Positions 1 through 44,729 of a stretch of 64,000 bases of DNA are shown in pieces. The notes beneath the pieces are model-generated. The model ran no database searches, had not been told where the DNA came from, and saw nothing but the letters and a program-made list of their open reading frames with translations. The first letter of the stretch is position 1. Each line of letters starts with the position of its first letter. This stretch comes from Winogradskyella sp. (GTDB lineage: Bacteria; Bacteroidota; Bacteroidia; Flavobacteriales; Flavobacteriaceae), in contig NZ_RHLG01000005.1 of the NCBI RefSeq assembly GCF_003712105.1, forward strand, positions 1 through 64,000, in the 5' to 3' direction. Position numbers and translations under genes: made by a program.

Positions 1-936
1 GGTGATACTGGAGCACAAGGACCACAAGGCGATGTTGGGCCTCAAGGACCACAAGGTGACGTTGGGCCACAAGGACCGCAAGGAGATTTTGGACCACAAG
101 GACCACAAGGTGATACAGGGCCACAAGGTGATACCGGAGCACAAGGACCTCAAGGTGATACTGGTCCGCAAGGACCGCAAGGTGATGCCGGAGCTCAAGG
201 TCCGCAAGGTGATGTTGGGCCACAAGGACCTCAAGGTGATGTTGGGCCACAAGGACCTCAAGGTGATACTGGTCCGCAAGGACCGCAAGGTGATACCGGA
301 GCTCAAGGACCGCAAGGTGACACTGGCCCGCAAGGGCCACAAGGAGATGTTGGTCCTCAAGGGCCGCAAGGTGACACTGGCCCGCAAGGGCCACAAGGTG
401 ATACTGGAGCACAAGGTCCTCAAGGCGATGTTGGGCCTCAAGGACCGCAAGGTGACGTTGGGCCGCAAGGGCCTCAAGGAGATGTTGGTCCTCAAGGGCC
501 GCAAGGTGATACTGGAGCACAAGGACCACAAGGCGATGTTGGGCCTCAAGGACCGCAAGGTGATATTGGTCCGCAAGGACCGCAAGGTGATACTGGTCCG
601 CAAGGACCGCAAGGTGATACCGGAGCTCAAGGGCCACAAGGTGATACTGGAGCACAAGGTCCTCAAGGTGATACAGGAGCACAAGGTCCTCAAGGCGATG
701 TTGGGCCTCAAGGACCGCAAGGTGATACTGGAGCACAAGGTCCTCAAGGCGATGTTGGGCCACAAGGGCCACAAGGTGATACTGGACCACAAGGGCCACA
801 AGGTGATGTTGGGCCTCAAGGACCGCAAGGTGATATTGGAGCACAAGGTCCTCAAGGCGATGTTGGGCCTCAAGGACCGCAAGGTGATATTGGTCCGCAA
901 GGACCGCAAGGTGATACTGGAGCACAAGGACCGCAA
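1..936 (+). repeat. 27-nt coding tandem repeat (collagen-like)
   Basis: Thirty-five adjacent units with no spacers: four 27-nt units (1-108), one short 18-nt unit (109-126, GDTGPQ), then thirty 27-nt units (127-936). Each codes for Gly-Asp-X-Gly-(Pro/Ala)-Gln-Gly-Pro-Gln with X mostly Thr or Val, sometimes Ile, Ala or Phe. Third-position synonymous changes (GGT/GGA/GGC/GGG, CCA/CCT/CCG) differ between copies. A 54-nt double unit (GDTGAQGPQ then GDVGPQGPQ) recurs at 1, 397, 505, 667 and 721, and with Ile for Thr at 829. Confidence 0.95.
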
Positions 937-1539
937 GGAGATCCAGCGACTAACATAACTACAACTTTGACTCAAAATACTACAACTGGAACTATCACAT
1001 ATACCAATGAAGAAAGCAATACGGCTACTGCTCAAGTTGTTGGTGCCGAAACAAATAATCAAATAGAGGTTGGAGCGAATGGCGGAGCTTATTTAGGACC
1101 AACTGTTTATGTCGGTTCATTTATAATAAATAACACAGGTAGTGAAGTTATAAATGGATTACCATTTAGACCATCACAAATAACCTTTGTTGCACATGCT
1201 AATGTTGAAAATTTTGGTTTGGATAATGACAATCAAGTTGGAAATAATAACAGTGGTATCGCCAATGCATATGGTACTATGAATGGTTTTGCAAGAGATG
1301 ATGGAGGCCCAAGACCAATACAAGGTGTAATTTATGTTGGAGGTAGTGGAAATTCAATTAATGATATCTCTAGATTCTCATCAAATTTATTATGTATTGG
1401 ATTAAGGTATAGTAACCAAAATGGTGATGCTATAGGTAGAACTTTAGCGGAGCTTACATCATTTGACAGTGATGGATTTACCCTAAATGTCACAAATTTA
1501 TCAGATAATGTCCTGGTGTTCTTTACTGCCTATAAATAA
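1..1539 (+). CDS. collagen-like repeat surface protein with C-terminal head domain (5' partial)
   Basis: The open frame runs from base 1 to the TAA at 1537-1539 without a stop and begins before the window, so only the C-terminal 512 residues are visible. Residues 1-312 are an unbroken Gly-X-Y collagen-like tract built from nonapeptides of the type GD(T/V/I)G(P/A)QGPQ. After [10 protein letters not shown] the repeats end and a ~200-residue, Asn/Gly-rich globular domain follows, ending in VLVFFTAYK. Collagen-like tracts followed by a C-terminal head are typical of trimeric stalk-and-head surface or fibre proteins; that role is inferred. I do not recognise the head domain. The stop is 7 bases before the ATG of the next gene, a T9SS cargo protein, suggesting co-transcription. 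A reading that starts at the TTG at 967 would cut the protein at the stalk-head boundary; there is no reason to prefer it because the repeat frame reads straight through. Confidence 0.9.
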
Positions 1540-1546
1540 AATCATT

Positions 1547-2683
1547 ATGAAAAAAAGGATTATTTTATTTTCTCTTTTATCATCTTTAGTAGGTTTAGGT
1601 CAACAGGCTTTTCAAAATTCTGGCAACATACAAATACATGCTGAAGGAGAAGTTGGTTTTCATATTGATTTGATTAATAATGGCATTTTTAATGAAAATC
1701 TAGGCACAACCGGATTTTATAACACCACTGCTCCATTATCGATTTCTGGTAGAGAAATTCCTCGTTTTTATGATATGGAAGTAGATGTCATTGACAATCT
1801 TTTTCTCGACATAAATACTGAAGTTAGTAATAGCTTGGCCTATTTAAATGGTGATATTGTTACACCTCGAAATACGCCTACTATTTCTTTAGATTTTTTA
1901 GAAAATGCTTTTTTCATATTACAAGAAGCTGCAAAGAAAACTGATGGTTATGTGAGTTTTAATGGCAATAGAATATTCAGTTTTCCAATTGGTGATGATA
2001 ATAAAATAAGACCCTTGATTACTACCAATACTACTCCTAACACAGTTGTTAAAGCAGCATATTTTAATGAAGATCCTAATTTTCCTTCGGTATTTACTTC
2101 AATATTTGACACGAGCAGAGTGGAATCCGTAGTAAATAGAGTAAGTACGCTTGAATTTTGGGATTTTGACGGACCAAATAATTCTGTTGTTACATTAACT
2201 TGGGATAACGAAAGTGAAATAGATCAACTCGTAACCAATCTTTTAAGTCTAAGAATTGTTGGATGGCATATTCAAGATCAAGAATGGAAAGATTTAGGAA
2301 ACTCAAACTTTACTGGTACCCTTAATACAGGAACTATAAGTTCGTTTGTTTTTAATCCTTCGGATTATGAGATCCTGACTTTAGGATCTTTAGTCACTAT
2401 TGACGAGTTAGAGGTCTTTAGCTTTTCCCCAAATAATGATGGCGCAAATGATACTTTTGTAATTAGAGGAATTGAGTCTTTTCAAAATGAACTAAAAATA
2501 TACAATCGCTGGGGTAATATTGTTTTTGAGACTACTAATTATCAAAATGATTGGGACGGCATATCTAACTCAAATAGAAGTATTAGACAAGGAGAAAAAT
2601 TACCAGTAGGAACTTATTTTTATACACTTCAAATTAAGAGTCCAAATAGAACCACAACTGGCTGGATTTATATTAATTACTAA
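1547..2683 (+). CDS. secreted protein with T9SS type B (CHU_C-type) C-terminal sorting domain
   Basis: A 378-residue protein. The start is set at the ATG at 1547 ([11 protein letters not shown], a signal peptide ending near GLGQQ); a longer reading from 1487 would overlap the collagen gene and bury the signal peptide. The last ~85 residues carry the gliding-motility/T9SS type B module: [12 protein letters not shown], then [24 protein letters not shown] and a terminal Tyr. Proteins with this module are exported by the Sec system and then through the type IX secretion system. The middle part (residues 20-290) is predicted beta-rich and I cannot assign it to a family. It sits 7 bases after the collagen-like gene, so the two probably form one surface-structure operon. 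Confidence 0.88.
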
Positions 2684-2730: not shown

Positions 2731-3498
2731 ATGAGAAGAGGTAACTTTAAAGTAAGATTATTTATTGGCTTAGCTGTTGTGGCTTTTGCGTTTATTAGAA
2801 AATGCAGCCAAGAAGAGATAAATCCTTATACAGGAAAAAAACAAGCAATATCCTTATCGCCAGAACAAGAAATTGCTATAGGCTTACAAAGTGCACCAAG
2901 CATGGCTCGTCAGCACGGTGGATTGCATCCAGATAATAGATACCAAGCACTGGTAGACAACGTGGGTAATAAGTTAGTTAATAATAGTATCGCAAAAAAC
3001 ACACCATACAAATACGAGTTTCATTTGTTGGCAGATGAACGGACCATAAATGCATTTGCCCTGCCTGGCGGACAAATTTTTATTACTTATGCGTTATTCG
3101 CCAAATTGCAAAATGAAGATCAATTAGCCGGTGTACTTGGTCATGAAATTGGGCATGTCCTCGGAAAACACTCCAATGAACGTATTACTAGTGCTAATTT
3201 CTGGAAAGTTATTGCCATGGGTGGTTCAGCAATAGACTTAGGTGGAGTAGCTCAGCAATATGGCCAAGGACAGCTTTTAAAAAATGGCCGCGGCGATGAA
3301 TTAGAAAGTGACGAGTTAGGCGTTCATTTTATGATTGAAGCAGGTTACAATCCAGAGGAAATGATTGGCGTTATGGAGATTTTAAAATCAGCTGCTGGAC
3401 CTAACAGAGTCCCTGAGTTTCAAAGTACGCATCCTGACCCAGAAAACAGAATTGAAAAAATTAAAGAGGCCATTAATAAATACAGAAAAGCATCCTAA
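2731..3498 (+). CDS. M48 family metallopeptidase, membrane-associated
   Basis: A 255-residue protein with an N-terminal hydrophobic segment (residues 9-22) followed by Cys25; the cysteine suggests a lipoprotein but the lipobox is poor (FIRKC). The zinc motif HEIGH lies at residues 138-142, and the downstream motif DELESD (residues 189-194) supplies the third ligand expected in family M48. The length and layout match the small M48 proteases of the BepA/LoiP type, which act in the periplasm or at the outer membrane in quality control of envelope proteins; that role here is inferred. A strong terminator overlaps the stop codon. The gene stands alone, and the short gap behind the T9SS cargo gene could allow read-through. 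Confidence 0.88.
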   Translation: MRRGNFKVRLFIGLAVVAFAFIRKCSQEEINPYTGKKQAISLSPEQEIAIGLQSAPSMARQHGGLHPDNRYQALVDNVGNKLVNNSIAKNTPYKYEFHLLADERTINAFALPGGQIFITYALFAKLQNEDQLAGVLGHEIGHVLGKHSNERITSANFWKVIAMGGSAIDLGGVAQQYGQGQLLKNGRGDELESDELGVHFMIEAGYNPEEMIGVMEILKSAAGPNRVPEFQSTHPDPENRIEKIKEAINKYRKAS

Positions 3499-42485: not shown

Positions 42486-44729
42486 ATGATTCCAAAGACA
42501 TTTAAAGAGGTCATAGACCTTGGTGATGGTAGAGAAATATCTATCGAAACCGGAAAATTAGCCAAACAAGCTCATGGAAGCGTTGTGGTGCAGTCAGGAA
42601 AGTGCATGCTCTTATGTACAGTTGTTTCCAACTACCATCAAGCAGACGTAGACTTTTTACCTTTAACAGTAGACTACAGAGAAAAATTTGCTGCAGCTGG
42701 TCGCTATCCAGGTGGTTTTTTCAAACGTGAAGCGAGACCAAGTGATGGAGAAGTATTAACAATGCGTTTAGTAGATCGTTGTTTAAGACCATTATTCCCA
42801 AAAGATTATCATGCTGAAACACAAGTTATGATTCAGTTAATGTCTCATGACCCAGAGGTAATGCCAGATGCTATGGCAGGTTTAGCTGCCTCAGCTGCGA
42901 TTCAATTATCAGATATTCCTTTTGAAACTGCTATCTCAGAAGTTAGAGTAGCACGAGTAAACGGTGAGTTTGTTATTAACCCATCTTTTGCTCAACTTGA
43001 AGAATCTGATCTTGATATGATGATTGGTGCTTCTGCAGATTCTGTAATGATGGTCGAAGGTGAAATGGATGAAATTTCTGAAGAAGAAATGGTTGAAGCT
43101 ATTAAAGCCGCGCATGAAGCCATTAAGGTTCAGTGTGCTGCACAATTACGATTAGCTGAAGCATTTGGTAAAAAAGAAACGCGTGAGTATGAGCCTGAAG
43201 TCGAAGATGAAGCCTTATCTGAGAAAGTTCACGATATGGTATATGATAAAGTATACGAAGTTGCTAAAACAGGGTCTTCTAAACATGAGCGTGGACAAGC
43301 ATTTAGTGATATTAAAGAAGCCGTATTCGCTTCTTTTTCCGAAGATGAACAAGACGAGCTTGGTAAATTAATTCACAAATATTTTTCTAAAGCGCATAAA
43401 AAAGCAGTTAGAGATTTAACACTTAATGAAGGTTTACGTTTAGATGGTCGTAAGACTACAGACATTAGGCCTATTTGGTGTGAGGTAGATTATTTACCAT
43501 CTACTCACGGCTCAGCTATATTTACTCGTGGAGAAACTCAAGCTTTAGCTACAGTAACTTTAGGAACAAGTAGAGAAGCTAATGTGATTGATATGCCATC
43601 TTACGAAGGTGAAGAGCGTTTCTATTTACATTACAATTTTCCACCGTTTTCAACTGGTGAAGCTAGACCAATTCGTGGTACATCTCGTAGAGAAGTTGGT
43701 CATGGTAACTTAGCACAACGTGCATTAAAAGGTATGGTACCAGAAGATTGTCCTTATACTGTAAGAGTAGTATCTGAGGTATTAGAATCTAACGGTTCGT
43801 CTTCTATGGCAACGGTTTGTTCTGGTACAATGGCGTTAATGGATGCAGGTGTGCAATTAAAGAAACCTGTTTCTGGTATTGCGATGGGATTAATTTCTGA
43901 TGGAGACAAATATGCAGTACTTTCTGATATACTAGGTGATGAAGACCATTTAGGTGATATGGACTTTAAAGTAACAGGTACTGCCGATGGTATCACAGCT
44001 ACCCAAATGGACATTAAAATAAAAGGATTGTCGTATGAGATTTTAGTAAAAGCGCTTATGCAAGCTCGTGATGGTCGTTTACACATTTTAAGTAAGCTTA
44101 CCGATACAATTGCTGAGCCAAATGCAGAAGTTAAAGAGCACGCTCCTACTATGGTGACTACACGTATTCCTAATGAATTTATTGGTGCATTAATTGGACC
44201 AGGTGGAAAAGTAATCCAAGAGTTACAAAAAGAAACTGAGACTACTATAGTTATTAATGAGGACCCAGTTACTGAAGAAGGAATTGTAGAAATTCTTGGT
44301 GTAGGTTCTAAAGGTATTGATGCTGTAATGGCAAAAATTGATGCCTTATTATTTAAGCCAGAAGTTGGTAGCGTATACGAAGTAAAAGTAATTAAGATGC
44401 TAGACTTTGGTGCTGTAGTAGAATATACAGATGCTCCAGGTAATGAGGTTTTACTTCATGTTAGTGAATTGGCTTGGGAACGTACAGAAAATGTTTCCGA
44501 TGTGGTTAAAATGGGAGATATTCTCGATGTGAAGTATTTTGGTATAGATCCAAAAACACGTAAAGAAAAAGTTTCTCGTAAGGCTATTTTACCAAAACCT
44601 GAAGGTTGGCAACCACGTCCAAAACGTGACAACAACAATCGTGGTGGTAATAATCGTGGTCGCGATAATCGTAATAGAGACAATCGCAGAGACGATAGAA
44701 AACCTCGAGAAGATAAAAAAGAAGATTAA
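42486..44729 (+). CDS. pnp: polyribonucleotide nucleotidyltransferase
   Basis: A 747-residue trimeric 3'-5' exoribonuclease that degrades RNA with phosphate. Order of domains: first RNase PH domain ([31 protein letters not shown]), alpha-helical linker (about residues 205-310), second, catalytic RNase PH domain ([20 protein letters not shown] and the [19 protein letters not shown] metal site), KH domain ([21 protein letters not shown]), S1 domain ([20 protein letters not shown]) and a 35-residue Arg/Asn/Asp-rich tail with repeated NRG and RDN units, likely to bind RNA or other degradosome members. The 150-base leader ahead of it has a weak hairpin. Confidence 0.98.

Follow-up and report, generated by a model that had tools for sequence, protein, structure and literature searches.

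In this article I discuss a collagen-like gene of Winogradskyella sp. that is cut by the end of an assembly contig, together with the locus in which it lies. The window, by which I mean the whole stretch of 64,000 nucleotides that was analysed, comprises bases 1-64000 of contig C3 in a genome of 3.15 Mb and 10 contigs, and since its first base is also the first base of the contig, C3 holds no sequence upstream of it. Bases 1-1539 probably form the 3' part of a single long gene, one that encodes a secreted surface fibre with a collagen stalk and belongs to an exchangeable adhesin cassette, and the following features were placed on them, all on the plus strand:

1..942, plus strand: 3' portion of the collagen tract with 104 Gly-X-Y triplets and two further residues, running off the contig start
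943..1104, plus strand: linker or stem of ~54 residues that precedes the head
1105..1536, plus strand: C-terminal head domain of ~144 residues, predicted all-beta, followed by the stop codon at 1537-1539
2..958, plus strand: frame-2 open reading frame (ORF) with a GTG start, 318 aa, judged not to be a gene

Reading frame, collagen tract and head domain

Frame 1 is open from base 1 through the stop at 1537-1539, giving 512 residues. Over residues 1-314 the Gly register is unbroken in 104/104 triplets (57 GPQ, 17 GDT, 13 GDV, 12 GAQ, 3 GDI, 1 GDF and 1 GDA), and Pfam Collagen (PF01391) matches the 512-residue part with 168.5 bits against a cut-off of 27.2, so that the perfect Gly-X-Y collagen seen here by the first-pass annotation, which had been made from the sequence alone, is borne out. 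The tract is also strongly acidic: its 314 residues include 36 Asp and zero Lys, Arg, His or Glu, whereas a homologue in Pelagihabitans pacificus (L129) has collagen rich in Lys; a cation-dependent stability of the acidic tract is a guess that I offer as such.

Frame 2 is likewise stop-free over the tract, but it uses 14 residue types vs 9 in frame 1, and frame 3 contains 26 stops. When codon-position diversity is taken as a mean over 27-nt repeat units (34 in the window tract and 35 in a second tract at the end of contig C2, discussed below), the values at frame-1 codon positions 1, 2 and 3 are 0.108, 0.056 and 0.380 in the window tract and 0.107, 0.052 and 0.421 in the C2 tract; and the variable first and second positions of the window tract are confined to two of the nine residues in each unit. 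Because unit-to-unit variation falls mainly on frame-1 third codon positions, frame 2 is a shadow, a by-product of the 27-nt repeat, as the first-pass annotation had recognized, albeit with the wrong start (an ATG in place of the GTG at base 2). The ORFs of 354 and 308 aa on the minus strand over the tract are judged to be shadows as well.

The same annotation had frame 1 continue without a stop to 1539 into a 200-residue head that matched nothing known, and here the run-on stands while the head shrinks, the 198 residues being divided between the linker and the domain proper, which ends in ...VLVFFTAYK. Structure prediction of 1075-1536 as a monomer returned an all-beta fold with a pLDDT (predicted local distance difference test score) of 92.4. 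Searches of Pfam, NCBIfam and PHROGs gave no match to the head at E<=1, and this much of the claim holds (TIGR04131, too, matches neither the head nor the 512-residue window part at that level), yet the head is no orphan, as a scan of genome contigs confirmed 133 relatives and it is a member of a common, unnamed domain family. The per-locus counts given here rest on 80 of those 133, which are nearly all flavobacterial, include 7 on collagen, and carry the head at the C terminus in 80/80 cases, on unlike stalks. A stretch like window 943-1110 was matched in 29/80 of these loci, partly in other genes. Two metagenome-assembled genomes labelled Saccharospirillaceae and Sulfurovum (L096 and L098) hold an otherwise flavobacterial head, through either a binning error or a transfer.

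Contig C2 and a variable cassette

A Pfam Collagen search of the whole genome gave 18 matches, of which 16 exceed the cut-off and are confined to the start of C3 and the end of C2, the remaining two lying on C9 below the cut-off. Contig C2 ends at 357,412 within an open frame whose orientation fits the window gene, and the first in-phase ATG of this frame opens a signal-peptide-like N terminus, MKRYLLAIILVSTCVISYSQ, that by eye resembles a Sec signal peptide and is followed by a domain of ~70 residues (VKIGNNPGTIDPSSILELES...), a linker and 119 triplets, 119/119 with Gly in register. These features indicate that the C2 end and the C3 start are the 5' and 3' halves of the same gene, the assembly break most likely falling inside the collagen repeat.

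The neighbouring genes can be followed on both sides of this break. On C2 the collagen gene is preceded by genes for an M1 peptidase, a DUF6702 protein, two CarbopepD_reg_2 proteins, an S51 peptidase and a GNAT protein, and on C3 it is followed by genes for a type B substrate of the type IX secretion system (T9SS), an M48 peptidase, an ankyrin protein and the phosphoglycerate mutase GpmI, the first two of which were placed as follows:

1547..2683, plus strand: type B T9SS substrate, TIGR04131 at residues 293-375 and CHU_C at 293-376
2731..3498, plus strand: M48 peptidase (Pfam, 113.7 bits against 20.3), right border of the variable cassette

The type B gene begins 7 nt after the stop of the collagen gene, and the two may well be co-transcribed. 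Its product scores 51.4 bits with TIGR04131 (cut-off 35), 97.9 with CHU_C (cut-off 27) and, slightly under the cut-off of 23, 21.3 with the type A model, and its N-terminal part is beta-rich by prediction. None of the six PorP/SprF-like genes lies beside it, the sole one on C3 being at C3:287263. Elsewhere in the same genome (G000), five type B T9SS domains are packed into 12 kb at C2:83756-95647, marking putative surface proteins in a dense cluster, and within the window a short 15-nt tandem repeat occupies 44633-44672, inside the ORF at 42486-44729.

When the M48 protein served as anchor for a search of 70 genomes (locus threshold E<=1e-60), the M48 locus was obtained in 28/43 genomes of the same genus, this one included; 5/28 carry the type B gene, and the other 23 show no type B match within the 1.5 kb flank, their neighbours being the S51 gene (in 23) and the GNAT gene (in 21). 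Because the genes beside the C2 end and the C3 start adjoin in these cassette-free relatives, the two contig ends flank one locus, and the cassette occupies one site in this genus, with presence or absence varying by species. The first-pass proposal that the gene is larger and begins before the window is thereby supported, a fitting 5' half having been found at the C2 end and synteny placing that end beside the window; of what was to be looked for upstream, a start and a signal-peptide-like N terminus lie on C2, and their membership of the same gene is likely on the grounds weighed below. Two of the 23 cassette-free sites (L178 in G029 and L180 in G040) have stop codons in the M48 peptidase gene.

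Where the cassette is present, G007, G024 and G020 show GNAT, fibre cassette, type B, M48, ankyrin and GpmI genes on one contig in the same order, and G051 shows GNAT through M48 on one contig. The more distant G078 and G068 have genes for an M1 peptidase and CarbopepD_reg-like proteins, one large fibre gene, the type B gene, one further gene and M48, with no GNAT match at the locus, and their long proteins end in a charged, probably helical stretch (by eye); in G070 the type B gene is accompanied by fibre genes, with no GNAT or M48 match within the stretch examined. Ten relatives were chosen by their type B orthologue for comparison of the cassettes, and the N-terminal domain encoded on C2 recurs in 7/7 cassettes uncut by a contig end and was not seen in the three that are cut, while the window head is found in 3/10. 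The wider head set is less uniform: it includes 20 loci in which the type B gene is almost complete and the 4 kb upstream are uncut, and among these the N-terminal domain is matched in 6 at >=77 bits, weakly and in part in 8, and not at all in 6 (4 kb may miss the cassette start), so that the constancy of this domain holds only near the window's genus plus a few others. Stalks and heads differ between species at one locus, and an exchange of stalk and tip at a single site would fit adhesin fibres. At L066:1-5299 (G012) a collagen gene next to the orthologous type B gene is likewise truncated by a contig end, and there the collagen composition and the tip are different. Across the wider set a contig end lies <=4 kb upstream of the head in 27/80 loci and downstream in 3/80, and among the 44 loci whose type B gene is almost complete, upstream in 24 and downstream in 1 (both comparisons being post hoc); this upstream excess matches repeat-rich stalks that precede the head.

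A proposed surface fibre and its rivals

The chain as I picture it would run from a Sec signal peptide through the small N-terminal domain, at least 223 Gly-X-Y triplets and the linker to a beta-sandwich head, and would be exported by Sec. The head would nucleate a trimer of three chains, the triple helix zipping toward the N terminus, and with the N-terminal end staying at the cell the head would point outward, forming the tip that contacts a surface or glycan; the gene would be part of a cassette inserted between the S51/GNAT genes and the M48 peptidase gene. Because the collagen protein has no T9SS domain, how such a fibre, lacking a sorting signal, crosses the outer membrane becomes a question, and a bolder reading has it co-exported with, or docked on, the type B protein. 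The result would be a two-part Flavobacteriaceae appendage, of a kind not met in the literature searched, in which the type B protein serves as the constant base or co-export partner, and trimeric fibres provide species-specific attachment from a fixed chromosomal site by exchanging their tip and their stalk, the latter collagen or beta-rich, in the manner of phage tail fibres, an idea that I hold only tentatively.

The same C-terminal domain might instead serve for docking or sorting, linking diverse stalks to the type B protein or the outer membrane, which would accord with its C-terminal position on unlike stalks in every listed relative and with a type B match near 47/80 heads; but no type B match accompanies 33/80 heads in the stretch examined, and in 7/10 relatives with an orthologous type B gene the head was not seen in the stretch (two of the seven being cut upstream), the N-terminal domain being the part that recurs in the uncut cassettes, and I regard a docking role as unlikely.

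More improbable still is that the break conceals two collagen genes side by side, the C2 gene bearing another tip and the last cassette gene having its own signal peptide, collagen and the window head, with the assembly broken between them. In favour of two genes, no exact overlap >=12 nt joins the contig ends, G007 places the N-terminal domain and the head on separate genes, and the cassettes of G007, G024, G020, G051 and G070 contain several fibre-like genes. Given the lack of end overlap, and with only 2 repeat unit types common to both tracts among 22 and 27 distinct ones, the gap between C2 and C3 cannot be closed in the present assembly. Against two genes stand the single-frame homologues L129 (861 aa, longest run 197 triplets) and L075 from Lacinutrix venerupis (1166 aa, longest run 208 triplets, containing an N run), each of which joins N-terminal domain, collagen and head, as well as the single large genes of G078 and G068, which have the N-terminal domain though with another tip; moreover, the C2 and C3 tracts use mainly identical triplets and the genome has no further collagen tract above the cut-off. 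That the N-terminal domain, both collagen tracts and the head form a single gene is consequently very likely.

It could also be imagined that the gene codes for a tail fibre from a prophage or a phage remnant, given a predicted head fold that weakly resembles phage fibre tips and an N-terminal domain with weak matches to 7 phage records (best 4e-6) and to PHROG tail-fibre models (E 0.003-0.009); yet viral contigs contain no confirmed relative of the head and phage records no match to it, the flanking genes are conserved and common to relatives lacking the insert, and the N terminus on C2 is signal-peptide-like, all of which makes a phage origin highly improbable. As for frame 2 being the coding frame after all, its 318 open codons count for next to nothing when the codon-position diversity, the perfect Gly register and the run-on of frame 1 into a conserved domain all contradict it.

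Collagen-stalked proteins already known

Both gene calling by the longest start-codon frame and assembly fail on collagen genes of this kind. The bacteria concerned live on algae, particles and animals, and should the parts described above cooperate, they would make a modular attachment fibre with which these habitats are colonised. Among the open-licence papers that the literature searches brought up, no title or abstract opening describes this head or locus.

Collagen-like proteins of E. coli prophages are joined to phage-fibre parts. They differ from the window protein in residing in prophages, whereas the window head has no phage relative found. Such prophage proteins are among the collagen-like proteins reported from Gram-negative genomes in the parts consulted of PMC3368898. 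With the streptococcal Scl1/SclA and Scl2/SclB proteins the window protein has the long Gly-X-Y tract in common (NCBIfam NF038330 for Scl1/SclA gives 254.6 bits against a cut-off of 400, and the Scl2/SclB model 217.3 against 325, both on the collagen part), but not the LPXTG anchor at the C terminus. The type B neighbour resembles the orphan type B T9SS substrates of Flavobacterium johnsoniae in scoring above the TIGR04131 cut-off with no adjoining PorP/SprF-like gene, a likeness of kind that may or may not extend to orthology with Fjoh_1123, Fjoh_1720 or Fjoh_4934, and the portions seen of PMC12618676 and PMC9143113 do not mention a collagen or fibre partner.

A further parallel is the Legionella collagen-like adhesin Lcl, whose trimeric C-terminal domain binds glycosaminoglycans, and of which homologues with DUF1566 and collagen are listed in Winogradskyella pacifica, W. 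wichelsiae, Formosa, Nonlabens and others (PMC11162425, in the sections seen). Lcl and the window protein are alike in setting a C-terminal globular domain on a collagen stalk, but the comparison, which covers the head and the profile score, separates them, since DUF1566 (PF07603) has no match at E<=1 in any of 61 head members and the NCBIfam Lcl model (NF046116), with its cut-off of 500, reaches just 175.9 bits, and does so on the collagen part. Bacteroidota collagen stalks with a DUF1566 head, in Winogradskyella too, were known already from that source, and what is added here is another head family, which is widespread, has no name and in many cases has a T9SS protein as its neighbour at a locus that recurs.
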